27,566 nt of DNA from a virus. The notes below the pieces were generated by a model, which saw nothing but the letters and a program-made list of their open reading frames with translations, did no database searches and was not told the DNA's origin. The stretch is taken from positions 1-27,566 of the IMG/VR virus record IMGVR_UViG_3300013006_000109. One strand, given 5' to 3'. Position numbers and translations under genes: made by a program. Position 1 is the first letter of the stretch; each line of letters opens with the position of its first letter. Positions 2,456 to 26,710 of this stretch are shown here, in pieces.

Positions 2456-2462
2456 GTGTAAT
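2456..2462 (+). promoter_or_regulatory. GTGTAAT late-promoter-like element
   Basis: The heptamer GTGTAAT ends 10 nt before the ATG at 2473, with AT-rich sequence and no Shine-Dalgarno. It matches the elements at 4518, 7201, 13739 and 21745. Confidence 0.5.
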
Positions 2463-2472
2463 ACTTATCACA

Positions 2473-2691
2473 ATGAAAAATAAAAAAACAATAACAACAG
2501 TATCTATTATCTTCTTGGCGCTATTAAGTTATCTATTATTTAATAAAAAAAGCAACCATATCTCAACAATAGGAACAGAAAGTACCATTCTTATTGATAA
2601 AAAATCATCAATTTCACCAGCGCCCAAGGTTTATATTTCTACTTTGCCCAAAAATGGGTTAGAAGTAGGAAGCAATTGGAAGAGCAAATGA
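2473..2691 (+). CDS. Membrane-anchor protein with Ser/Pro/Lys linker
   Basis: A 72-aa protein with a basic N-terminus and one hydrophobic helix (about residues 9-24, SIIFLALLSYLLF core), then a Ser/Thr/Pro/Lys-rich, cysteine-free tail that looks like a linker, not a folded domain. It is first in the rightward cassette and overlaps the next gene by ATGA at 2688-2691. Together the two would make a typical anchored enzyme: membrane helix, linker, catalytic domain. Either they are separate coupled genes or a frameshift has split one gene; no slippery heptamer is visible at the junction. It is preceded by a GTGTAAT element. Confidence 0.6.
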   Translation: MKNKKTITTVSIIFLALLSYLLFNKKSNHISTIGTESTILIDKKSSISPAPKVYISTLPKNGLEVGSNWKSK

Positions 2692-3143
2692 TCAAATCAG
2701 AACAAATTCATAAATTTGATGTCTTTAGAATTGCAAAAATAAATGGCTATGCTGTAACCAATAAACAAACATATAATACAATAGATCAACCCTTAATTGA
2801 AAATAAAATCCTTCCAGGGTATACCGATTGGTTACTAAAAATGAAATTAAGTAAATATTCAAATAAGTGGAATTGTATGAATTTTTCAAAAGCTTTTGTC
2901 TTATTCAGTGATATCTATCATGCTTATAATGTAGAAAATCATGAGGATGGTATTGCTATTGGAATTATAACCTATCTTTCTCAATCTAGAGCAGAAGATA
3001 ACTCTGTAGGATTGCATGCAATTAATGTAGGCTTAACACTTAAAAATAATAGAATAACACCTATATTTATTGAGCCCCAACATGGCAAAATTATAAATCT
3101 AAAAAGTAAAGAATTAGAGACTATAAATGCGTTTTACATGTAA
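2688..3143 (+). CDS. Putative cysteine peptidase or transglutaminase-like protein
   Basis: A 151-aa protein whose conserved-looking residues fall in the order Cys-His-Glu: WNCMNFSKAF (Cys63), LHAINVG (His110, Asn113) and FIEPQHG (Glu129, Gln131). NC..F, HA.NV and EPQ in this order are typical of papain- or transglutaminase-fold enzymes, so I infer a thiol hydrolase; activity is not proven. The ATG at 2688 is chosen because GGAAGAG lies 5 nt before it and it forms an ATGA overlap; an in-frame TTG at 2676 lies inside the upstream gene. It has no signal peptide of its own, unlike the following genes, which is odd unless it works with the membrane anchor encoded just upstream. Confidence 0.65.
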   Translation: MIKSEQIHKFDVFRIAKINGYAVTNKQTYNTIDQPLIENKILPGYTDWLLKMKLSKYSNKWNCMNFSKAFVLFSDIYHAYNVENHEDGIAIGIITYLSQSRAEDNSVGLHAINVGLTLKNNRITPIFIEPQHGKIINLKSKELETINAFYM

Positions 3144-3150
3144 AATAGCC

Positions 3151-3179
3151 TTGACCTCAAGTTAAATTGATAGTAGTAT
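3151..3179 (+). promoter_or_regulatory. Sigma70-type promoter before the 3187 gene
   Basis: TTGACC (3151-3156), 17-bp spacer, TAGTAT (3174-3179), then 7 nt to the ATG at 3187, in the 43-nt gap after the putative peptidase gene. No Shine-Dalgarno is present, so the transcript would be leaderless, like those of the leftward genes. Confidence 0.5.
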
Positions 3180-3186
3180 ATATTAT

Positions 3187-3522
3187 ATGAAGAAATTAAT
3201 AATAACAAGTCTCCTAATCTTATCAAGTTTTAATATAAACCACGCAAATGAAACAAAATGTCTCATTTGGAAAGATGATTTCGGTAATGCAGAAAATCAT
3301 AGAATTCGTACCCTACAATCAGAAGTAAGATATCACGAAGCGGAATACAATAGAGCAACTAAATCAAAAATGGAATATAGAGATGTTCTTCTTATGAGAA
3401 ACGCAGCTCAAAACGTAAGATTTCAAAAACAAAACGAGCTTAGTAATCTCAAGAATAAATATCTTACTAAAGCTAGTGGTGGCCCTCAATTTCAAATCAA
3501 AAAATATAACTGCCCAAAATAA
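3187..3522 (+). CDS. Exported small coiled-coil protein
   Basis: A 111-aa protein with a clear Sec signal peptide (MKKLIITSLLILSS..., cleavage likely after HA near residue 20). The mature part is charged and helical, with two cysteines (CLIWKDD near the start, YNCPK at the end) that could form a disulfide after export. No enzymatic motif is visible and no family is recognised. The stop overlaps the next start (TAATG at 3520-3524), so it is coupled to the C39-like gene. It may be a periplasmic partner or chaperone of the neighbouring peptidase-like proteins; this rests on context alone. Confidence 0.62.
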   Translation: MKKLIITSLLILSSFNINHANETKCLIWKDDFGNAENHRIRTLQSEVRYHEAEYNRATKSKMEYRDVLLMRNAAQNVRFQKQNELSNLKNKYLTKASGGPQFQIKKYNCPK

Positions 3523-4118
3523 TGATTAGATCTTTATTTTTAGTATCGCTGATTTGTTTAAATCAAAGTTTTTCTCAAGTTTATAACTATAGAAGCATAG
3601 ATGCCTATAACACCAGACGAGTAGAAGAAATAAAAGCAGAAGGTTACTACTGTGATATAAAATATGTTCCTCAACTTCCGAGTTTATGCGTAGCTGCATC
3701 TACTCAAATGGTCTTATATTATTACGGTCAGGAGATAGATCAAAAAGATATTAAACGACAAGTAGATGGAATCATGTATAAAGATAACGACAAAAGAATG
3801 TTTAGTCCAATATATTCATTCGAAAAATTAATAAAAGGTCTTAGATATTTTGACGTTACTTGGGAAACAAAATCATATGGAATGACTAAGGGAGATGAAG
3901 GTTTAAATTTTATTATTAGTGAACTAAAAAATAAAAGACCAGTTCTCATTGCGGCAAAGGAGCACGTTGTAGTACTAAATGGATATCATGAAAACAATAA
4001 ATTATTCTTAATAACAGATCCAGGTATTGAAAGTCCAGGGATTAGAATTATATCATATCAAGAGCTTAAGAGCATATGGCATTCAAAAAACTACAAGAGG
4101 TATTTAGTTAAAACTTAA
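3522..4118 (+). CDS. Exported C39-like cysteine peptidase
   Basis: A 198-aa protein with a signal peptide (cleavage near FSQ, about residue 19). The order of motifs fits the papain-like C39 peptidase fold: VPQLPSLCVAAS with Gln51 and Cys56, a YYYGQ segment after the first helix, KEHVVVLNGY with His148, and LITDPGIESPG with Asp166. The family includes bacteriocin leader peptidases and many secreted proteins of unknown substrate. No transporter domain is attached. It is the third of four closely packed rightward genes with exported or anchored products; the next ATG follows after one base. The substrate is unknown: host envelope protein, competing phage or virion maturation are all open. Confidence 0.78.
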   Translation: MIRSLFLVSLICLNQSFSQVYNYRSIDAYNTRRVEEIKAEGYYCDIKYVPQLPSLCVAASTQMVLYYYGQEIDQKDIKRQVDGIMYKDNDKRMFSPIYSFEKLIKGLRYFDVTWETKSYGMTKGDEGLNFIISELKNKRPVLIAAKEHVVVLNGYHENNKLFLITDPGIESPGIRIISYQELKSIWHSKNYKRYLVKT

Positions 4119-4119
4119 T

Positions 4120-4518
4120 ATGAAAAAATTTATAGTATTTTTCTTATTTATATTTAGTTGTTCATTTTGTAACGCTCAGATCAACAAAAGAATACCTTTA
4201 AACTATCCTAATTCTTGTCTTATAAATAGTATAGTAGCTTACGAAGCAATTAATAAGAAATTAGGCCAACATAATATATGGAGCGAAGTTTTAGGAGTTG
4301 TATATTATGAAAATCGTAATGGAAAAAGAACAAAAGAAGGTCATGCTGTATGCGTTTATGAGTGGAGAGGTAATTTTTATTTATATGATATTAATAATGG
4401 CGGTAGCATTGTAGAAATGAATGGGATAAGCTCTGATATTAAAAAGGATGCTGTGGCTATGGCAGAATGGATTTTTGGACAAGGCAATATAGAAGCAGCA
4501 GAATATTTAGCCAAATAG
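4120..4518 (+). CDS. Exported small papain-like protein
   Basis: A 132-aa protein with a signal peptide (MKKFIVFFLFIFSCSFCNA, cleavage after NA at residue 19). The mature part has NSCLINSIVAY (Cys33), KEGHAVCVYEW (His75) and FYLYDINNGG (Asp90), again in Cys-His-Asp order with the beta-hairpin spacing of papain- or NlpC-like folds. It is smaller than the C39-like neighbour and not clearly alignable to it outside the motifs. The start lies one base after the previous stop. Because the three proteins share only the catalytic logic, the cassette looks like a collection of different thiol-hydrolase folds, not a tandem duplication. Catalysis is inferred, not shown. Confidence 0.65.
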   Translation: MKKFIVFFLFIFSCSFCNAQINKRIPLNYPNSCLINSIVAYEAINKKLGQHNIWSEVLGVVYYENRNGKRTKEGHAVCVYEWRGNFYLYDINNGGSIVEMNGISSDIKKDAVAMAEWIFGQGNIEAAEYLAK

Positions 4519-4524
4519 TGTAAT
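4518..4524 (+). promoter_or_regulatory. GTGTAAT late-promoter-like element
   Basis: It overlaps the stop codon of the upstream gene and ends 8 nt before the ATG at 4533. There is no Shine-Dalgarno. Confidence 0.5.
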
Positions 4525-4532
4525 TAGATTTA

Positions 4533-5486
4533 ATGTTTAAAGTATTATTAGGGCTATCAGCTCTATTCTTAGCATCTTGTGGAGCTTTCTTTTCTGTGAA
4601 AGGAATAGGCCTTTTATTCTCTGGTAGTTTTTGGCCAGCGATTATTATGGCTAGCAGTTTAGAGTTTGGAAAAATAATGGCAACCAGTTTTTTATATAGA
4701 TACTGGAAAAAAATTAATAATATTATCAAATCATATTTAATAAGTGCAGTAGTAGTTCTTATGGTTATTACAAGTCTTGGAATATTTGGATTTCTTAGTC
4801 AAGCTTTCTACTCAACTAAAAGTAATATAGATGCAATTGAATCCCAAGTATCATTACTAGAAGCTAAAAAGAGTTCACTAAAAGATCAAGTAGCTTCAAA
4901 TAATGAAAGAGTTAAAAGTTTAACAGAAACGCGCAAGAATCAAGAGAATAATCTATCTAAAGCATTAGACCAATCTACAACCACAACAGTAACTAAATCT
5001 GGAGGGTTCTTTGGAAGCGATAGTCAAGAAAAAGTAGTAGACAAAAAATCACTAGAATTAAAATCTAAAACTCTAGAAGGTATGCAGGTTAGTATATCAT
5101 CATTAGAATCAAATGTAGAGAAAATTAATAGTATTAACGTTAATTTATTATCAGAAGTCAACTCTCTTGACACTTCTATTATAGATCTTAAAAAAGAAAT
5201 TAGCAAATCTGATATTGGCACATATAAATTTATAGCAGAGGCATTTAATGTAAAAATAGAAACTGTAGTTAAGTTATTTATCTTAATTATTGTAGGGGTA
5301 TTTGATCCATTAGCAGTATCATTACTATTAGCTTATAATATTGCAGCTAATAAAAAATTTGACGAAAAAGAAATTGAAATAATAGAAAAACCAATTGAAA
5401 TTATAAAAACTTTATTAACCCCTTTTAAAAGAGGCACTAAACAAAAACATAACCCAACCCTTGCAGATCCAGGTATAAAAAATTAA
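4533..5486 (+). CDS. Multi-span membrane protein with central coiled coil
   Basis: A 317-aa protein. Hydrophobic segments lie at about 3-22, 25-52 and 68-92; a long Lys/Glu/Ser-rich coiled coil spans about 96-228, interrupted by a Gly/Ser/Thr loop (148-165); a last span at 244-270 contains VGVFDPLAVSLLLAY. The layout resembles membrane proteins of unknown function found in other large phages (DUF4407-like in design). The segment FWPAIIMASSLEFGKI is probably a helical hairpin. It has its own GTGTAAT element. Its stop overlaps the stop of the convergent leftward gene (5483-5486), leaving no room for a terminator. A role in envelope remodelling or superinfection exclusion is possible, but no motif supports a specific function. 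Confidence 0.72.
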   Translation: MFKVLLGLSALFLASCGAFFSVKGIGLLFSGSFWPAIIMASSLEFGKIMATSFLYRYWKKINNIIKSYLISAVVVLMVITSLGIFGFLSQAFYSTKSNIDAIESQVSLLEAKKSSLKDQVASNNERVKSLTETRKNQENNLSKALDQSTTTTVTKSGGFFGSDSQEKVVDKKSLELKSKTLEGMQVSISSLESNVEKINSINVNLLSEVNSLDTSIIDLKKEISKSDIGTYKFIAEAFNVKIETVVKLFILIIVGVFDPLAVSLLLAYNIAANKKFDEKEIEIIEKPIEIIKTLLTPFKRGTKQKHNPTLADPGIKN

Positions 5487-7217: not shown

Positions 7218-7559
7218 ATGTCTAATCTCACAACAACAGATATCTCTGAAAAAAGAATAAATTTAGATTATGATGCCACTCCAGCAGACCCAATATCTAA
7301 TTTTACAGTAAGCGGAACAAATGGAACAGTTTTACAAGCGAATGCTGATCGCGAAGAACTTTATATTCAAAATTTGTCAACATCTCATCTTCATGTAAAA
7401 TACGGAGCTTCTGCTGCGGGTAATTCATTTAATTTTGTTCTAGCTTCGAGCACTAATGCTGGAGGCGGTGATGGTGGAAGCTTAAGCGATCTTAATTATA
7501 CAGGAATAGTTAGCGTTAGTGGAGTGAGCCCAAATTATATTTGCTGGGAAAGAAGTTAG
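7218..7559 (+). CDS. Small beta-rich virion-type protein
   Basis: A 113-aa protein without signal peptide or membrane span. The order REELYIQNLSTSHLHVKYG, an Ala/Gly-rich turn, a Gly-rich loop and a late strand ending in ICWE resembles a small beta-sandwich seen in many phage genomes next to structural genes (Q-N-x-S ... hVKyG ... tG-x-V-x-V-S). I infer a minor head, neck or decoration component. It is first in a two-gene unit with the LamG-like gene and carries a GTGTAAT element, as do the portal and holin genes. Confidence 0.7.
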   Translation: MSNLTTTDISEKRINLDYDATPADPISNFTVSGTNGTVLQANADREELYIQNLSTSHLHVKYGASAAGNSFNFVLASSTNAGGGDGGSLSDLNYTGIVSVSGVSPNYICWERS

Positions 7560-8737: not shown

Positions 8738-9199
8738 ATGTTAAAAATTTATTGTTCTGATTGTGGTTCACCAACTGAATATTCCTTAAATAAACCTAAA
8801 TTTTGTACAAATTGTGGAAATTCATTTTTGGGCGTTAAAAAAGAAAAAGTAGCTTTACCAGTTCAAATGCAAAAACCAACCCTAAGCAAAGCTAAAAGAC
8901 CAAATATTGAACCAGAAGATTACGAGGATGATGATTCTGAAATTACAGAAGTAAATGAAGTACCAGATATTGATAATTTAGATTTTGATGTTGACATTTA
9001 TCAACATAAAGGAGAAAAAATCGGCAACATAATTGGTTCTTCAAAAGACAACGATGCTAGAAAGAATAGGCCAAAAATTGCCTTTAATAAAAAAGAACAA
9101 TTAGAAAATTTAGCTAAAGAAGGTGGCGCTTTACGACCTTTATCACGTTCTGTAGCCCAAAGGCCAACGAAAAATCGTAAGGGCCGAACAAATGGGTAA
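8738..9199 (+). CDS. Zinc-ribbon protein with disordered acidic middle
   Basis: A 153-aa protein. The N-terminus is a zinc ribbon (CSDC at 6-9, CTNC at 23-26). A low-complexity stretch follows with an acidic cluster (about 57-87, EDYEDDDSE...) and a basic C-terminus (RPTKNRKGRTNG). There is no enzymatic motif. Its last 8 bases overlap the sigma-like gene. With that neighbour it may act in transcription, for example as an adaptor on RNA polymerase, but this is inferred from position and the zinc ribbon only. It begins the coupled chain that ends with the terminase. Confidence 0.7.
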   Translation: MLKIYCSDCGSPTEYSLNKPKFCTNCGNSFLGVKKEKVALPVQMQKPTLSKAKRPNIEPEDYEDDDSEITEVNEVPDIDNLDFDVDIYQHKGEKIGNIIGSSKDNDARKNRPKIAFNKKEQLENLAKEGGALRPLSRSVAQRPTKNRKGRTNG

Positions 9200-9872
9200 A
9201 AAGCTTAAATTCGAAAATCATATTGATAGTATAAATACAGAAATTTTTAAAAGAAAAAATAAGTGGAATTTAACTGCTATTGCTTGGATGGACTACAATG
9301 ATGTATCTCAGATATTAAGATTTCATATTTATAAAAAATGGCATCTTTATAATTCTTCAAAACCACTTGCTCCTTGGGTGAACAGAATAATCAGTAATCA
9401 AATCAAAAATTTAATACGAAATAATTATAGCAATTATTCAAGGCCTTGTTTAAAATGTAATGCAGCAGAGTCAGATGATGGTTGCGCTATTTATCATAAA
9501 CAATGTGCAGCTTGTCCACTTTATTCAAATTGGCAGAGTAGTAAGAAGAATGCTCATGATACAAAAATAACCGTTAGTTTAGAAAATCATACTCAAGAAG
9601 TTAATGATATGAAAAATGATCATTTCGACTTGGAATCTTCAGCTAAAAATATACATGATAAAATGCAAAAGATTTTAAAACCAATAGAGTGGAAAATATA
9701 TAAATATTTATATATTGAAGATAAAAGTGATGAAGAAGTAGCAACTTTGATGGGATACAAGACTACTGAAAAAAATCGTATGGCTGGATACAAACAAATT
9801 AAAAATTTAAAAAAATCTATCATAATAAAAGTAAAAAAACATTTATACAATGGAGATATAGATATAGTATGA
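9192..9872 (+). CDS. Phage sigma-like factor with Cys-rich insertion
   Basis: A 226-aa protein with sigma70-family layout. Region 2-like sequence lies at about 32-79 (DYNDVSQILRFHIYKKW, then PLAPWVNRIISNQIKNLIRN, a strong region-2 signature). Region 4-like sequence lies at about 157-215 (LKPIEWKIYKYLY, then DEEVATLMGYKT as the first part of a helix-turn-helix). Between them sits an insertion with five Cys (86, 89, 98, 105, 108; CLKC ... CAACPL) likely to bind zinc. Such factors redirect host RNA polymerase to phage late genes, so it is the natural candidate to recognise GTGTAAT; that link is inference. The start has AAGGG about 8 nt upstream, and the end overlaps the next gene as ATGA. Confidence 0.78.
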   Translation: MGKKLKFENHIDSINTEIFKRKNKWNLTAIAWMDYNDVSQILRFHIYKKWHLYNSSKPLAPWVNRIISNQIKNLIRNNYSNYSRPCLKCNAAESDDGCAIYHKQCAACPLYSNWQSSKKNAHDTKITVSLENHTQEVNDMKNDHFDLESSAKNIHDKMQKILKPIEWKIYKYLYIEDKSDEEVATLMGYKTTEKNRMAGYKQIKNLKKSIIIKVKKHLYNGDIDIV

Positions 9873-13756: not shown

Positions 13757-15664
13757 ATGGCTAAAAAAAATAAAAAGTCTGAAAAATCGATTAAAAATCA
13801 AGGATTCGAACCTATGATAGTATCGAACGCATCAGACGATAGCTTTAAATATACAGCTAAAGCAGAAGAGACTAGGGTCAGAAGAAATGCTGCAAGTACC
13901 TCTGTTAGAACAGATAGATATAAAAATATTAGCGATGGATTAATACCTTTTAGATATTCTTCAGGAATTAAAAATGATTCAAATATAAATGTTCGCGATG
14001 CTGTTATCCTTTGTCAAAAGGCTTATTATAATTTTGCAATATTTAGAAATACGATTGATTTAATGACAGAATTTTCTTCTAGTAATATATACTATACTGG
14101 CGGTAGCTCTAAATCAAGAAACTTTTTTGAAGCTTTATTTAAAAAAATCAATATAACAGACCTCCAAGATAAATTTTTCCGTGAATACTATCGTTCTGGT
14201 AATGTTTTTATTTATCGTTTTGATACAAAAGTAGCAGACGCAGATATAGACAGGATAACGCAAACGTTCGGACTAGTTTCTCAAGCAAAAGTTAGTTTGC
14301 CTTCTAAATATATAATATTAAATCCATCAGACATTCAAATTGCTGGAACTGTTAATTTTTCTCAAAGTAAATATTATAAAATATTAAGTGACTATGAATT
14401 AGAAAGACTTAAGACTCCAAAAACTGACGAGGATAGAGAAATGCTAGAGAGTCTTCCTCCAGAAACCAAAAAACTTATTAAAGAAAAGACTGTAGGGGTT
14501 CTTACTTTATCTTTAGAGCGAGAAAAACTTTGCGCAGTATTTTATAAAAAACAAGATTACGAACCATTTTCAGTTCCCATGGGTTTTCCAGTATTAGAAG
14601 ATATAAATTGGAAAGCAGAAATGAAAAAAATGGATATGGCTGTTACGAGAACAATGCAGCAATCTGTTCTTCTTGTTACTATGGGAGATACTCCAGACAA
14701 CGGAGGCATTAATCAAAAGAACCTAGAATCGATGCAAAAACTTTTTGAAAATCAAAGTGTAGGTAGAGTTTTAATTGCAGATTATACAACAAAAGCTCAA
14801 TTTGTTATTCCAGATATTTCTAGTCTTCTTGGTCCACAAAAATATGAAGTTGTTGATAGAGATATTCAAATGGGATTAAATAATATTTTAATAGGTACCG
14901 AAAAATTTGCCAATACTAGTATTAAAGTACAAGTATTTATAGAAAGACTCAAGCAAGCTCGCCAAACATTTTTAAATGAATTTTTAGTTCCAGAAATACG
15001 TAGAATTAGCAAAGATCTTGGATTTAAAAATTACCCAAACCCAAATTTTGAAGATATTGATTTAAAAGATGATGTTCAGTACTCTAGAGTTTATACCAGA
15101 CTTGTTGAACTTGGAATATTAACTCCATTAGAAGGAATTACAGCAATCGAAACAGGAAGACTTCCAGATGCAGACGAGTCTATAGAAGCTCAACAAAAAT
15201 TTAAAGAATTAAAAGACCAAGGTTTCTATCAACCGTTAATTGGAGGAAGTCAACAACAAGCTGGTAGACCACCTGGATCAACTGGAATTCCTCAAAGCAC
15301 AAAAAATGTTTCACCTCCTGGAACTGGTAAGCAATCGAAAGCTATTGAAGAGAAATACAGTCTTATAAAAGTTAAAGAGAATCTTGTTCTTGCTCAAAAA
15401 TTAGAAGAAGAAGTTTCAGCTGCGCTTCGCAAAAAACATAACATTAAAAAGCTAAGTTATAATCAAAAAGACGTAGCAGAACAAATATCTAAGATTATTA
15501 TTGCTAATGAACTTCCAGAAAATTGGACATCTAAAATAGAAAATTATATTGAATCTCCTATAGACCAAAATCAAGAAGCTATTGCGAGTGTAAATTCCAT
15601 CGCTTACGATCATCAAGTCGATAGTTATCTTGCAAGTATTCTTTATCATAGCAAAGTAAAATAA
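13757..15664 (+). CDS. Portal protein
   Basis: A 635-aa protein following the terminase, with a portal-like plan: a charged disordered N-terminus (1-60), a clip/stem region containing FFREYYRSGNVFIYRF, PSKYIILNPSDIQI and VGVLTLSLEREKL, a wing with helical KKMDMAVTRTMQQSVLLVT, then DRDIQMGLNNILIG and a long stem-like helix (VQVFIERLKQARQTFLNEFLVPEIRRI). The C-terminal 130 residues are a Gly/Pro/Gln linker and a helical tail. It should form the dodecameric ring at the packaging vertex. No capsid, protease or scaffold gene follows within the window; the next gene begins one base after the stop and is a fibre. Confidence 0.88.
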   Translation: MAKKNKKSEKSIKNQGFEPMIVSNASDDSFKYTAKAEETRVRRNAASTSVRTDRYKNISDGLIPFRYSSGIKNDSNINVRDAVILCQKAYYNFAIFRNTIDLMTEFSSSNIYYTGGSSKSRNFFEALFKKINITDLQDKFFREYYRSGNVFIYRFDTKVADADIDRITQTFGLVSQAKVSLPSKYIILNPSDIQIAGTVNFSQSKYYKILSDYELERLKTPKTDEDREMLESLPPETKKLIKEKTVGVLTLSLEREKLCAVFYKKQDYEPFSVPMGFPVLEDINWKAEMKKMDMAVTRTMQQSVLLVTMGDTPDNGGINQKNLESMQKLFENQSVGRVLIADYTTKAQFVIPDISSLLGPQKYEVVDRDIQMGLNNILIGTEKFANTSIKVQVFIERLKQARQTFLNEFLVPEIRRISKDLGFKNYPNPNFEDIDLKDDVQYSRVYTRLVELGILTPLEGITAIETGRLPDADESIEAQQKFKELKDQGFYQPLIGGSQQQAGRPPGSTGIPQSTKNVSPPGTGKQSKAIEEKYSLIKVKENLVLAQKLEEEVSAALRKKHNIKKLSYNQKDVAEQISKIIIANELPENWTSKIENYIESPIDQNQEAIASVNSIAYDHQVDSYLASILYHSKVK

Positions 15665-18597: not shown

Positions 18598-20796
18598 ATG
18601 AATACAGGAATACCATTAATACTAAATTTTGATTTAAAAGCTCCGCTCCCATTAGACCAACGGTTATCGGTAAATGTTACAGGAGAGTTAAATTCGATAG
18701 TGCAACCATATTCTGGAATGGCAGTCTATTCTGCAGATACTCAAACAGTATATTATTTAAAAAATATTACAAATGGCACAAAAACTTGGGTTGATTTTCC
18801 AAGTTCAGCGCAATTCGTTAAAAATTATGGCGATGAAACCATAAATGGAATTAAAACTTTTTCATCTCGTCCAAACTTAAATGGAAATGGATTTTTAGTG
18901 CAGGGTGATATCACCATGGGAGATGTAATTGGTATTCCAAATTTTCAAACAAATGCAGTGTACAACGACAACATATTAATGAATTCTAATTCTACTGGAT
19001 ATTTGACTGGTGTTGGATATAGTGGAAATTTTGATGGTGGATATTTCTTTGGAAGAACAAAGATAACTCAAAATAGAAGCAGAATACATGAAGCTAGTAT
19101 AGGTGAAAATTTTACAGCAGTAGGTTCATTGCCAGGAGCATGGAGATGGTTGTCTTGCAGTAGTGATGCGCAATACATAACTGCTTCTAGAGATAATAAT
19201 TTTCTTTATGTTTCTAATAATTTTGGAAAAACTTGGTATGCAACAGCTAAAGAGTTTGGTAATTTAAATTGGAGAGGAACGGCAATGAGTGCTGACGGAA
19301 AGTATCAAATTGCTGTTACTACCTTCCTTGCTGGCGGCGCTGGTATCGTAGCAGTTTCAAAAGACTATGGTAATTCTTGGACACAAAAATTTAATAACAC
19401 AAATGATTGGGTAAATCCTGCTATGAGTTCTGATGGAAAATATCAAACGGTTATTTATTCTAATAATGCTGATCAGACAGTTACTATTTATAGATCCAAC
19501 AATTACGGAGAAAGCTTTAGCGCGGTTAACGCAATCGCTAATTCAATAGTATTAAGAGCTTTAAGATTTATAGCAATGAGTAGCGATGGAAAATATCAAA
19601 CTATTGTAACAACCAAATATATTTTAACTTCTTCTAACTATGGGGTAACTTGGACACGAGCGCTTGAAACTCCAAACAGTGTGCCTTTCTTTTCGAATAC
19701 TATGAGCGCAGACGGAAGATTTCAATTGGTTGTAAGTGCTGGTAAAGATAATTTTGAGGGTCGAGTTTATGCTTCTAATGATTATGGACTTACTTGGAAA
19801 ATTACAAAAGATTTTGGTCTTTATTCTTCTTTAACTTCAATTGCTAACAGTGATCATGGTAGACTATCAGTGCTTACGGTAAAAAATGGATTTGTCTTTA
19901 CTTCTGTTGATTATGGGAATAATTGGAAGCTCGCAACTACAAAAGAAAATATTACCACAACTCTTGCTTCTGCAATTACAACCACTACAGAAACAAGTAT
20001 TAACGTAAATTCATCATTAAACATGTCCGTAGATGATACTCTAGGAAGTACTTTTTTACAAATTGATAATGAAATTTTACGTATAACTAATATTGTAGGA
20101 AATACTCTTACTGTGGCGAGAGGATCTATGGGAACAGTGGCAGCACCACACATAAATAACTCCATAGTTATACTTTCAAAAGATTTACGAAGAACAGTGA
20201 TGAGCAATGATGGCAAATATTTAATAATTTGTGAGAATAATTACAACAATGAAAATCGTCAAGGATATATTAGCATTTCTACATCTGAAGAGAAAATTGA
20301 TGGTAATTTTTATGCAGATAATTTAGTATACATCTCTGGAAATCAGACCATCGCTGGAGTTAAAACTTTTACTACAGAAGTAACTGCTCCGAATTTAGTA
20401 TATAATACTGGAAATCAAACTATTTCTGGAGTTAAAACATTTTCTTCTGCACCAACATTTAGCGCAGGAGCATCTTTTAATGGAGCTAGAATAGCAAATG
20501 CTATACCAGAAACAGTAACTGTTACAAATAATTTAAATCTAGATGCATCTCACAATTGTAAAATAATTTTAGCAAATTCACCAACGCCATTTTCAATTAC
20601 TGGCGTGTCAAGTCTTGGTGCGGGATTTAATGTTTCTGTTATACAGCAAGGTTTGGGTCAAATTACGATTGCTACAGGAGTAGGTACCACATTAAATAGT
20701 TACGGCAATTTATATAAAACTGCTGGACCTTACGCAGCAGTATCAATATTAGGTTTAGGCGGTGGTAATTTTATAATGTATGGAAATACAGCATGA
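18598..20796 (+). CDS. Fibre protein with Asp-box (BNR) beta-propeller
   Basis: A 732-aa protein. N-terminal module YYLKNITNG, one fibre repeat (78-88), then a propeller with six Asp boxes: SNNFGKTW (206), SKDYGNSW (254), SNNYGESF (300), SSNYGVTW (345), SNDYGLTW (393), SVDYGNNW (436). MSxDGKYQ-type strands alternate with them (230, 276, 327, 369, 535). A phage-type beta module (about 452-526: IDNEILRITNIVGNTLTVARG) is inserted before the last MSNDGKYL strand. Two more fibre repeats follow (581-591, 605-615), then a beta tail ending in a common fibre terminus (ATGVGTTLNSYGNLYKTAG). Asp-box propellers occur in sialidases and sortilins; I do not see a convincing sialidase active site, so glycan or protein binding is likelier than catalysis. 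The end overlaps the next start (ATGA). Confidence 0.84.
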   Translation: MNTGIPLILNFDLKAPLPLDQRLSVNVTGELNSIVQPYSGMAVYSADTQTVYYLKNITNGTKTWVDFPSSAQFVKNYGDETINGIKTFSSRPNLNGNGFLVQGDITMGDVIGIPNFQTNAVYNDNILMNSNSTGYLTGVGYSGNFDGGYFFGRTKITQNRSRIHEASIGENFTAVGSLPGAWRWLSCSSDAQYITASRDNNFLYVSNNFGKTWYATAKEFGNLNWRGTAMSADGKYQIAVTTFLAGGAGIVAVSKDYGNSWTQKFNNTNDWVNPAMSSDGKYQTVIYSNNADQTVTIYRSNNYGESFSAVNAIANSIVLRALRFIAMSSDGKYQTIVTTKYILTSSNYGVTWTRALETPNSVPFFSNTMSADGRFQLVVSAGKDNFEGRVYASNDYGLTWKITKDFGLYSSLTSIANSDHGRLSVLTVKNGFVFTSVDYGNNWKLATTKENITTTLASAITTTTETSINVNSSLNMSVDDTLGSTFLQIDNEILRITNIVGNTLTVARGSMGTVAAPHINNSIVILSKDLRRTVMSNDGKYLIICENNYNNENRQGYISISTSEEKIDGNFYADNLVYISGNQTIAGVKTFTTEVTAPNLVYNTGNQTISGVKTFSSAPTFSAGASFNGARIANAIPETVTVTNNLNLDASHNCKIILANSPTPFSITGVSSLGAGFNVSVIQQGLGQITIATGVGTTLNSYGNLYKTAGPYAAVSILGLGGGNFIMYGNTA

Positions 20797-23086: not shown

Positions 23087-26000
23087 ATGGGTTTAATTTT
23101 TAATTATAACGCGGGTTCTCAGACTTATACTATCGGTGCAGGCAGCACTCATATTGGAATTTTAGAAATACCAGATACTGTTGGAGAAAATGAATACCCA
23201 GTTGTTGGTATTGATAATGATGCTTTTAATGGAAGTACCACTTTAACAAGCGTTATACTTGGAAGTAACGTAACTTCTATTGGTGCTAGGGCTTTTGCAA
23301 ATTGCACAAATTTAGTCACTGTTGACGCTTCTCTTTCTAATGTTAGAACTATGGGTGTGCAAAGTTTTTTTAATTGCGCTAATCTAGTTACTGCTTCTTT
23401 TCCTGCATTTGAAACTAGCCCACCATCTGTTACATGGGCAGGTCAAAATTTCATGAATTGCTCAAAATTAACAACAGTTAATCTCTCTAATGGTCTAATA
23501 GCAATAAATGCTCAGACATTTTTCTTTTGCTTTGTATTAAATAATATAACTATACCTGAAACTGTCACATCAATAGGAAATAAGGCTTTTGATGGTTGCG
23601 GTAGTTTATCTTCTATAACTATTCCTAGCGCAGTTCAAAATATTGGCGACAATGTATTTAACTATTGTAGGAATTTATTATCTGTAAATTTTTCACCAAA
23701 TAGTACTTTAATAAGTGTTGGTCATCAATGTTTTTTATTTTGCAGCAACTTGGTAAGTGTTAATTTTAATAGTTTAACAACTTTAGGATCTAATGCGTTT
23801 TGGTATTGTGGTAAACTAGAAACTGTAACTCTCCCAAATAATTTACAAAGCATCCCCCAGTGGGCTTTTGAGTACTGTACTAGTTTAAAAAACTTTACTT
23901 TTCCAAGTGCATTAAAAAGCATAGGTCAAAAAGCTTTTGCTGCTACTGGAATTATTGCTGCAAATATTCCAAATGGAGTGACATACATAGGAGAAGGTGC
24001 TTTTCAAGACTGCACTGGTTTAATTACAGCAAATATACCAACGAGTATAACTGGTTTAGGCTCTAGAGTATTCGCTGGTTGTAGTAATTTGATTTCTAAT
24101 ATGGTTTTTCCAGCAGCAATAACTCAAATACCTGATATTATTATGCAGGGCTGCGCTAAAGCTTCTTTTACATTACCAAGTACATTGACTCGTATTGGAA
24201 ATTATTCTTTTTTAGGTATGAATGCCATTACAAGTGTCACTTTACCAAATTCTGTAACAATTATTGGACATTCTGCATTTGCTTATTGCTTTAACCTAGC
24301 TAGTATAAATTTAAATAATGTAACTGGTATTTACAATGCAACTTTTCGTAATACAAAATTAACTAGTATTGATTTGTCTAGTATTACGCAAATAAACTAT
24401 GAATCCTTCCAAAGTTGCACAGCTTTAACAAGTGTAACAATTGGATCTTCGTGTCTTTCAATAGAACCAATAGCTTTTCTTAATTGTACAAATTTAGCAA
24501 ATGTTACATTTCTGTCACCAAGCAACTTATTAAGTATAAAAGGTTCAGCTTTTTCTGGTTGCACAAAATTAACTTCTTTGAATTTGCCAAATTCAATAAC
24601 GACTATTGATGGTTCTGCTTTTAGTAGTTGTTTGCTTCTGTCTTCTATAAATATTCCGCCTTTGATAGATAAAATAAATAGTGGTGTTTTTTCAAATTGC
24701 AAAGCTTTAAAAACTATTACAATACCATCAAATATTATTAGTATATTGGAAAATGCTTTCCAAGGCTCTGGCTTAGAGAATATAACTATGCCAGCATCAG
24801 TAAATTATTTAGGAAACTATGCTCTTTCTAATTGCCTTAGTTTAAATTCCGTAAGTATACAAAATAATAATATGGTATTCGGAAAAAATATTTTTTCTGG
24901 ATCAACTGTAGCTAATTTTACATTTGGAGATTTTAGTTATTCATTTGCTGCTAATAAAGCTACTATAAAAGCATATAGCGGCGCAGATGAGATTGTTAAC
25001 ATACCCTATAGTATATTTGATACTACAATTTTAAAAATAGGTGATTCAGCTTTTAAAAATAATGCAAATTTAAAAGAAATAAATTTTACTAGTCCTATTG
25101 AAGCTATTCTTGATAATGCTTTTAAAAATTGCCCTAATCTGTCTAAAATAACTTTACCAAAATCAATTACATCAATCGGCAATAGCGCTTTTTACGCATG
25201 TTCTGGTTTAAGCGAAAGGTTAAATCTACCAAAAAGCCTATTATCTATAGGAAATTATGCATTTTATGCATGCAACAATATAACTTCTTTAGTTTTAGAA
25301 AATAAAGTAAATACTATAGGAGATTATGCATTTGCTAATTGTTCAGCATTAAAATTAATTTATTTTTATGGTAATGCTCCAACTTTTGGATCTAATGTAT
25401 TCGCTAATATTAGCTCTGACAAAAAATTTTTACGTTACTTAGCTAGATCTGGATGGGACAATGTTAGCGCTCAAATTAGTCCATTAAGTTTAATATTATA
25501 TAGTTTAGTGAAGTCTTCTAGGATTACATCTACTTCAGGAAATAAAAAATCTTTTGTTTTCAAAACTCAAGATTTATCCACAATTAATGTTTTTAGAAAT
25601 AAATCATATCTTTTTAAATCTGCCAGCAATAATTTATTAAGTCAAATTTTTGATCCTTCTTTGTTTAACGACGGGAGTACCATTGCTATATCTGATGTAT
25701 CTTCTCCAAGTAATCCATTTATAAAATTTAAAAAATCTTCAAGTAACACATGGTTAAACTTTGATTCTGAAGCAAATAGCGATAATTATTCTATACCAAA
25801 TAATTCTATTTTATTTTTCAGTACTTTTGTATCTAGTATTGCTATTGGTGGCGGCGCACTTATACAAAAATATCCTTCTGGAAAAATTAAAATAAGCGCA
25901 TCTTACCCTACAGATCAAGATGCTCTAAATTATGTACTTGCTGTAGAAAATATAGATGGAGAAAGATTAGAGCAGAAAGTTAAAATTGCAATTGAAAATT

Positions 26001-26710
26001 TTGTTGTTGGTTGTAAAAATGATGGTATTTGGGACTCTATAAAAGAGTCATGTTTGATTGGCGGTGCAAGAACTTTAAGCGCAGCTTTACTACCATTAAA
26101 AGGAAATGCTCCAACAAATATTAATTTTGTTTCTTCGGATTATAATAGAAAAACTGGAATTACATCACGATATGGAGATCTTAAAAGTTTAAAAGCTGGA
26201 TCTAAAAATTTAGATTATCCTAGAGATAATGTTCACGCTGCGGTTTATGTTACTCAACCTTTAGATATGTGGTATTCGTATTTCTTTATTTACGCGCTAA
26301 GAAGTATAGATTTAAGAGTTTCTATTGATAGTTTTTATTTTAACTTAAGAAACTGTAATACATTTAATAGCTCTCTTTTAGCGTATTGGAACTCAGACTG
26401 GAGCATAGAAACTTTTTCAGGTTTAGTTGGAACGTCTAAACCTAATAGTTTATCCATTGAAGGAAGAATTAATGGAAATAGTTATACACAAATTTTGGCA
26501 CCATGTACATCCTCTTATTGGATTTCAAGAGCGTACCAACAGGGAGATATTTATCTTTTTACTAATAGTCCAACTAGTGCAAACTATTATAATTATAGTC
26601 CAGGAACAATTGGCTTCTATTCTTTAGGTGAAAATATAGATTTAGCTAAATTAGATAATAGATTAAAAATATATTTTGATGCAATCGATATAGGAGTCGA
26701 AGACGAATGA
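23087..26710 (+). CDS. Giant BspA-like leucine-rich-repeat adhesin
   Basis: A 1207-aa protein. Residues about 35-775 are around thirty BspA/TpLRR-type repeats of about 23 residues (consensus TIPxSVTSIGxxAFxxCxxLxxV; for example SIGNKAFDGCGSLSSITIP). A linker region (about 776-920) follows. The C-terminal about 285 residues are paralogous to the 20793 protein, so they are probably a fibre-type attachment or tip domain. The protein has no signal peptide, fitting a virion protein more than a secreted one. BspA-like LRRs mediate cell and protein adhesion in bacteria and protists. The gene starts five bases after the lipoprotein stop in A-rich sequence without a Shine-Dalgarno. The many near-identical repeats offer scope for recombination. 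Confidence 0.85.
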   Translation: MGLIFNYNAGSQTYTIGAGSTHIGILEIPDTVGENEYPVVGIDNDAFNGSTTLTSVILGSNVTSIGARAFANCTNLVTVDASLSNVRTMGVQSFFNCANLVTASFPAFETSPPSVTWAGQNFMNCSKLTTVNLSNGLIAINAQTFFFCFVLNNITIPETVTSIGNKAFDGCGSLSSITIPSAVQNIGDNVFNYCRNLLSVNFSPNSTLISVGHQCFLFCSNLVSVNFNSLTTLGSNAFWYCGKLETVTLPNNLQSIPQWAFEYCTSLKNFTFPSALKSIGQKAFAATGIIAANIPNGVTYIGEGAFQDCTGLITANIPTSITGLGSRVFAGCSNLISNMVFPAAITQIPDIIMQGCAKASFTLPSTLTRIGNYSFLGMNAITSVTLPNSVTIIGHSAFAYCFNLASINLNNVTGIYNATFRNTKLTSIDLSSITQINYESFQSCTALTSVTIGSSCLSIEPIAFLNCTNLANVTFLSPSNLLSIKGSAFSGCTKLTSLNLPNSITTIDGSAFSSCLLLSSINIPPLIDKINSGVFSNCKALKTITIPSNIISILENAFQGSGLENITMPASVNYLGNYALSNCLSLNSVSIQNNNMVFGKNIFSGSTVANFTFGDFSYSFAANKATIKAYSGADEIVNIPYSIFDTTILKIGDSAFKNNANLKEINFTSPIEAILDNAFKNCPNLSKITLPKSITSIGNSAFYACSGLSERLNLPKSLLSIGNYAFYACNNITSLVLENKVNTIGDYAFANCSALKLIYFYGNAPTFGSNVFANISSDKKFLRYLARSGWDNVSAQISPLSLILYSLVKSSRITSTSGNKKSFVFKTQDLSTINVFRNKSYLFKSASNNLLSQIFDPSLFNDGSTIAISDVSSPSNPFIKFKKSSSNTWLNFDSEANSDNYSIPNNSILFFSTFVSSIAIGGGALIQKYPSGKIKISASYPTDQDALNYVLAVENIDGERLEQKVKIAIENFVVGCKNDGIWDSIKESCLIGGARTLSAALLPLKGNAPTNINFVSSDYNRKTGITSRYGDLKSLKAGSKNLDYPRDNVHAAVYVTQPLDMWYSYFFIYALRSIDLRVSIDSFYFNLRNCNTFNSSLLAYWNSDWSIETFSGLVGTSKPNSLSIEGRINGNSYTQILAPCTSSYWISRAYQQGDIYLFTNSPTSANYYNYSPGTIGFYSLGENIDLAKLDNRLKIYFDAIDIGVEDE

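Follow-up and report, generated by a model that had tools for sequence, protein, structure and literature searches.

A cassette of three dissimilar cysteine-peptidase-like proteins, including a stand-alone MOA-type protease, in a variable slot of an uncultured phage

A compact set of genes in a 27,566-bp IMG/VR virus contig (the window, that is, the whole stretch of DNA analyzed here; probably a fragment) encodes three cysteine-peptidase-like proteins belonging to different families. Two of these are identified with high confidence, P2 as a protease of the type best known from mushroom lectins such as MOA (Marasmius oreades agglutinin; Pfam Agglutinin_C) and P4 as a C39-like peptidase, whereas the assignment of P5 is of moderate confidence, and confidence in the function is low. 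The reading we favor, without giving it quite an even chance, is that the cassette is a late-expressed accessory proteolysis module that acts mainly on the envelope, as an aid to lysis or in exclusion.

Organization of the locus

The open reading frames of P1 to P5 were confirmed at positions 2473-4518, all on the plus strand and tightly packed: an ATGA overlap joins P1 and P2, a TAATG overlap joins P3 and P4, and a single nucleotide separates P4 from P5. The earlier note had limited the cassette to these five genes; the open reading frames are real, but the gene set reaches on to P6, a more conserved neighbor. The features of the locus are the following.

2456..2462, plus strand: GTGTAAT element before P1, phage-wide and promoter-like (position statistics of the heptamer in 60 contigs)
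2473..2691, plus strand: P1, 72-aa protein with a single transmembrane segment (open reading frame; homolog in 36 of 60 contigs)
2688..3143, ATG at 2688, plus strand: P2, 151-aa MOA-type (Agglutinin_C) cysteine protease (AlphaFold2 model, Foldseek, VIA, profile, PF18021)
3187..3522, plus strand: P3, 111-aa exported coiled-coil-like protein (open reading frame, alignment, linkage with P5)
3522..4118, plus strand: P4, 198-aa exported C39-like peptidase (Pfam Peptidase_C39_2, profile match to 3erv)
4120..4518, plus strand: P5, 132-aa exported putative papain-like protein of an apparently new family (invariant Cys, His and Asp; AlphaFold2 model of moderate quality)
4518..4524, plus strand: GTGTAAT element before P6 (same heptamer statistics as the copy before P1)
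4533..5486, plus strand: P6, 317-aa coiled-coil-like membrane protein (hydropathy, IMG/VR loci, remote phage homologs)

A gene for a cell-wall hydrolase of the Hydrolase_2 family lies about 1 kb upstream of the cassette on the opposite strand. Elsewhere in the window, positions 23087-26710 encode a protein of 1207 aa in which BspA-like leucine-rich repeats are numerous and a C-terminal stretch resembles the product of the gene at 20793; judging by its sequence, it is likely to belong to the tail or to bind surfaces. As a pointer to the host, suggestive only, the closest homologs of P8 are found in an unassigned phage and in Pelagibacter phage HTVC033P (58%).

Three dissimilar peptidase families

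The order Cys-His-acidic residue in one protein alone is weak evidence of a peptidase, and hence was checked across homolog families. The order that the earlier note described for the products starting at 2688, 3522 and 4120 is kept throughout their families (18 P2, 7 P4 and 17 P5 sequences). The note had also held that the three proteins share little else, and indeed comparison of the P2, P4 and P5 profiles detected no similarity among them (hhalign probabilities 0.4-3.8%); the profile-profile comparison thus lends no support to the idea that the three arose from one another by duplication. The claim of three different cysteine-peptidase folds holds for P4 through its Pfam match, for P2 through structure, profile alignment and the Pfam matches of its family, and for P5 moderately. 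In the window pairs listed, below saturation, dN/dS was 0.31-0.55 for P2, 0.29-0.49 for P4 and 0.16-0.22 for P5, so that all three proteins are under purifying selection.

The fold search proposed in the earlier note gave a clear outcome for P2. The AlphaFold2 model (pLDDT 84, pTM 0.83) matched MOA/PSL1a in Foldseek with an E-value of 3e-5, and the VIA superposition of residues 1-151 on MOA/PSL1a yielded a Z-score of 15.8 with an rmsd of 2.6 A over 135 aligned residues, covering the whole chain, with the next fold in the list at Z 6.4; protein-glutaminase and transglutaminase are among the lower-ranked structural matches. C63, H110 and E129, together with P130 and Q131, are invariant in the alignment of 18 homologs. 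A profile alignment, itself insignificant as a match (E 0.43), places C63, H110, E129 and Q131 on Cys215, His257, Glu274 and Gln276 of MOA, the catalytic roles of which have been described (PMC8244254). PF18021 (Agglutinin_C) is matched by 15 of the 18 members of the P2 family (best match 1.3e-7); the window P2 searched alone against Pfam gave no match.

Compared with the C-terminal protease domain of MOA/PSL1a, P2 has the same fold over its whole length (135 of 151 residues) and the same C...HA...FxEPQ set, but is a stand-alone domain with about 15% identity: all 151 residues are covered by the protease domain, and there is no N-terminal beta-trefoil lectin domain. Next to the catalytic Cys, the window P2 has N-C-M-N where most relatives have D-C-D-N and MOA has D-C-D, and near the position of the MOA oxyanion residue Trp208, most P2 relatives have K-W and the window copy has K-Y (according to the sequence alignment only). 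Since the window P2 lacks the Asp on either side of the Cys and has a Tyr near the Trp208 position, its metal dependence is possibly different, and its activation by Ca or Mn may be changed relative to MOA. The N-terminus of P2 is not hydrophobic, and the protein is predicted to be cytoplasmic, without a signal peptide. Three contigs with a standard P2 also carry a second, diverged P2 (L092:5240-5707; L103:4655-5095; L104:9398-9838, minus strand).

A 2016 paper presented the MOA protease as the representative of a papain-like subfamily specific to fungi (PMC4764322), and PF18021 and PF18022 were classed as papain-like in 2023 (PMC10318531). Our literature search, which was incomplete, found no paper on phage members of the Agglutinin_C family. 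The occurrence of this domain in viruses is not wholly new because Pyrobaculum filamentous virus 1 has already been annotated with an Agglutinin C-terminal domain-containing protein, a stand-alone relative of P2 found here by structure; this, however, is a virus of an archaeon and not a tailed phage.

P4 matches Pfam Peptidase_C39_2 (PF13529) at 1.6e-11 and 45.4 bits, against a gathering cut-off of 24, and the same model is matched by all seven members of the P4 family. The P4 profile finds the C39-like peptidase 3erv, and Q51, C56, H148 and D166 are invariant across the alignment of seven homologs. P4 has the same domain, with its Q-C-H-D set, as 3erv and the C39-like domain of mycobacteriophage endolysins (PMC3314691), but is a small, exported, single-domain protein that lacks the fused transporter or lysin domains.

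Twelve homologs of P5 all share C33, H75 and D90, as does every member of a wider set of 17 reaching down to 25% identity. The AlphaFold2 model (pLDDT 74, pTM 0.62) shows a helix that begins at Cys33, with the His and Asp on strands that come after it, an arrangement that would fit that of vasohibin/CPR-C4, AvrPphB and SseI. Papain-like enzymes (vasohibins, AvrPphB, SseI, CPR-C4) are numerous in the Foldseek and VIA lists, with unrelated folds interspersed; the lower-ranked structural matches include NTAQ1, arylamine N-acetyltransferase and SseI. The best VIA match is vasohibin at Z 5.3, which is below the level meaningful alone and within the usual background, so that a specific kinship of P5 with vasohibin was rejected. 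P5 differs from the vasohibin/CPR-C4 and effector folds in that the Z-scores are only about 5 and the mature protein comprises about 110 residues; a search of PDB returned one meaningless match, and no sequence match was found in PDB or Pfam. With moderate confidence, the model points to a papain-like fold, and P5 apparently represents a new family.

Longer, membrane-anchored relatives of P5 (176-194 aa) that keep the same Cys, His and Asp residues are encoded downstream of the P2/P8 block in five contigs (L080:7974, L081:10813, L089:7397, L098:6605, L099:10507). In four others (L054:1062-2511, L058:3288-5036, L059:677-2105, L055:631-1763), the neighbor of the P5 homolog is a membrane protein that carries a vWA-like D-x-S-P-S-M motif and replaces or accompanies P6.

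The P2-bearing phages are a broad set that includes one T4-like phage. No homologs of P2, P4 or P5 were detected by tblastn in isolated phages, and neither P2 nor P5 was found in bacterial or archaeal genome contigs by a pattern method sensitive to close relatives only.

Exported and membrane proteins of the cassette

By inspection, P3, P4 and P5 have signal-peptide-like N-termini. This agrees with the earlier description of two exported peptidases, P4 and P5, with an exported coiled-coil partner, P3, which is coiled-coil-like, contains a conserved C-x-x-W-x-x-D motif, and shows no lipobox, a feature of spanin partners. P1 contains one N-terminal hydrophobic segment and ends in a conserved G-x-N-W-x-S-[RK]. 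The note had regarded P1 as an anchor for the following peptidase; a gene for a protein with a single transmembrane segment does precede P2, but 7 of the 36 P1 contigs, some of which are fragments, lack P2, and a role of P1 as a dedicated partner of P2 is therefore unsupported.

Hydrophobic segments in P6 (near residues 4-29, 69-87 and 248-266) surround a long stretch of coiled-coil-like sequence. The protein matches 36 IMG/VR loci at 67-85% identity and has remote homologs (27-36% identity, hypothetical where annotated) in isolated large phages of different hosts, namely, Stenotrophomonas phages CM1/RAS14, Xanthomonas phage XacN1, Pelagibacter phage Mosig, Microcystis phage Mel-JY01 and Flavobacterium phage immuto. 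Unlike the window, these isolated phages encode no P2, P4 or P5 homolog detectable by tblastn. P6 appears to be a widespread membrane coiled-coil protein. A match to LmuB, which would make it a defense protein, and weak matches to Rz-like families, which would make it a spanin, are confined to the coiled-coil stretch and were judged to be likely artefacts. In Flavobacterium phage immuto and Pelagibacter phage Mosig, the P6 homologs are encoded near lysis-type genes (chitinase/holin or glucosaminidase).

The GTGTAAT element

The 60 contigs contain 209 copies of GTGTAAT, and in 137 of these the last base lies 3-14 nt ahead of the in-frame ATG of an open reading frame; permuted heptamers show this placement in 1.3% of cases and the reverse complement in 0 of 209. 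Since the contigs are relatives, the counts are not independent of one another. Throughout the phage lineage, the element is found mostly 7-17 nt before start codons. The number of copies in the window is not significant (7 versus 4 expected), and those at 2456, 4518, 7201 and 13739 precede, respectively, P1, P6, the gene at 7218 and the gene at 13757, which is next after the terminase gene and, from this position, is read as the portal gene. No second box was seen upstream of GTGTAAT, and we infer that the element is a candidate one-box late-type promoter with short leaders. The element does precede the cassette, as the earlier note had described, but is not specific to it, being phage-wide; because it is common to the portal-position gene, late expression of the cassette is suggested. 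Positions 9192-9872 of the window encode a sigma-70-like factor (weak region 2 match; NCBIfam sigma70-ECF), a candidate reader of GTGTAAT.

Co-occurrence of the genes and the variable slot

The comparison set consisted of 60 non-duplicate contigs (59 loci and the window) gathered through P2, P5 and P6, and Fisher tests among these three were accordingly left unused; P3 and P4 played no part in the collection. P2 was detected in 43 contigs, P6 in 38, P1 in 36, P5 in 25, P3 in 16 and P4 in 7. P3 is accompanied by P5 in 15 of its 16 contigs, the exception (L042) ending just upstream, and P4 is never found without P2, P3, P5 and P6. A separate scan of IMG/VR with P4 alone yielded eight contigs, all already in the set and all also encoding P2, P3, P5 and P6, with two of eight pairs near-identical, which reduces the number of independent lineages. 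The prediction that the genes travel together in relatives is borne out by these counts. P4 is dispensable to the cassette: in four contigs (L015, L018, L028, L031), P2, P3 and P5 are present and P4 is absent.

Other contigs carry different genes in the interval from P1 to P6, which is therefore an accessory slot of variable content next to a conserved backbone (P6, P7, P8 and PhoH). In six contigs (L016, L021, L025, L029, L034, L043), inspection of the sequences in the slot points to HNH-like, glycosyltransferase-like, nucleotidyltransferase-like and sulfotransferase-like genes. Given that the slot holds unrelated accessory genes in relatives, neighbors within it need not share a pathway.

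Possible roles of the cassette

In the scenario we favor, a large uncultured phage would obtain from this late-type accessory operon three independent peptidases of the papain superfamily, all active as proteases. P2 would work in the cytoplasm, whereas P4, P5 and P3 would be exported by Sec to the periplasm, with P3 as a co-exported cofactor or adaptor and P6, an inner-membrane coiled-coil protein, as a possible membrane platform. Late in infection, P4 and P5 would cut periplasmic or envelope proteins or peptide cross-links, and this cleavage may weaken the envelope for release, strip surface proteins, or both. The promoter-like element common to the portal-position gene, together with the nearby cell-wall hydrolase gene, favors such a late envelope or lysis role over early takeover; the upstream Hydrolase_2 gene and the lysis-type genes near the P6 homologs make help in lysis or in remodeling the envelope the first guess and exclusion of competitors the second, and the C39-like domains of mycobacteriophage endolysins offer a precedent for the favored reading. 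'Envelope' cannot cover the whole cassette because P2 is not exported. The fuller proposal of a co-inherited envelope-proteolysis module, with P6 at the center of three unrelated papain-superfamily peptidases placed to either side of the inner membrane, P5 being a new family and P2 a stand-alone form of a 'fungal-specific' subfamily, strikes us as rather doubtful when taken in its entirety.

Superinfection exclusion or receptor removal on its own, whereby exported P4 and P5 would cleave a surface or periplasmic protein on which competing phages depend to adsorb or to bring in their DNA, with P3 as adaptor and P6 as anchor, is an unlikely account. The signal-peptide-like N-termini and the membrane neighbors fit it, and the accessory presence or absence and diversification of the genes are expected of phage-phage competition genes; however, sharing an element with the portal-position gene points to late expression, P2 is cytoplasmic, and a resemblance to known exclusion proteins was not detected. 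That shared element also speaks against an early role in counter-defense, with P2 in the cytosol and P4 and P5 in the periplasm destroying host defense proteins or incoming bacteriocins. This possibility is in keeping with the accessory setting and with the retention of a cytoplasmic P2 in a broad phage set, one T4-like phage included, but PADLOC, which covers defense rather than counter-defense, was blank for P1-P5, and we deem it distinctly improbable. Thiol chemistry other than proteolysis, such as deamidation, transglutamination or amidase action on peptidoglycan, we consider improbable: it would accommodate the lower-ranked structural matches of P2 and P5 listed above and the occurrence of C39-like domains in phage endolysins, but the protein that P2 matches best, by a wide margin, has been shown to be a protease and has the same C/H/E/Q set. 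A role of P2 as head-maturation protease, with the other genes unrelated to it, is very unlikely. No S77 or S78 prohead protease was detected in 9 of 10 large related contigs, but contig G002 encodes P2 beside a T4-type S77 protease and Gp23, and L033 and L036 keep P6 and its neighbors with P2 absent from the recovered stretch; all of these absences are weak evidence because every contig is a fragment. A prohead protease identity of P2 is accordingly disfavored.

Implications

A stand-alone P2 in 43 phage contigs, mostly beside the same conserved genes, defines a viral branch of the MOA protease family, and P2 offers a tractable minimal enzyme of this type. With its invariant Cys, His and Asp, P5 establishes a compact family of putative papain-like proteins. 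To our knowledge, Sec-exported phage proteases are little known. The cassette suggests that the phage cuts host proteins, probably those of the envelope, and if the module acts there, it would represent a proteolytic route in lysis or exclusion that is distinct from endolysins.
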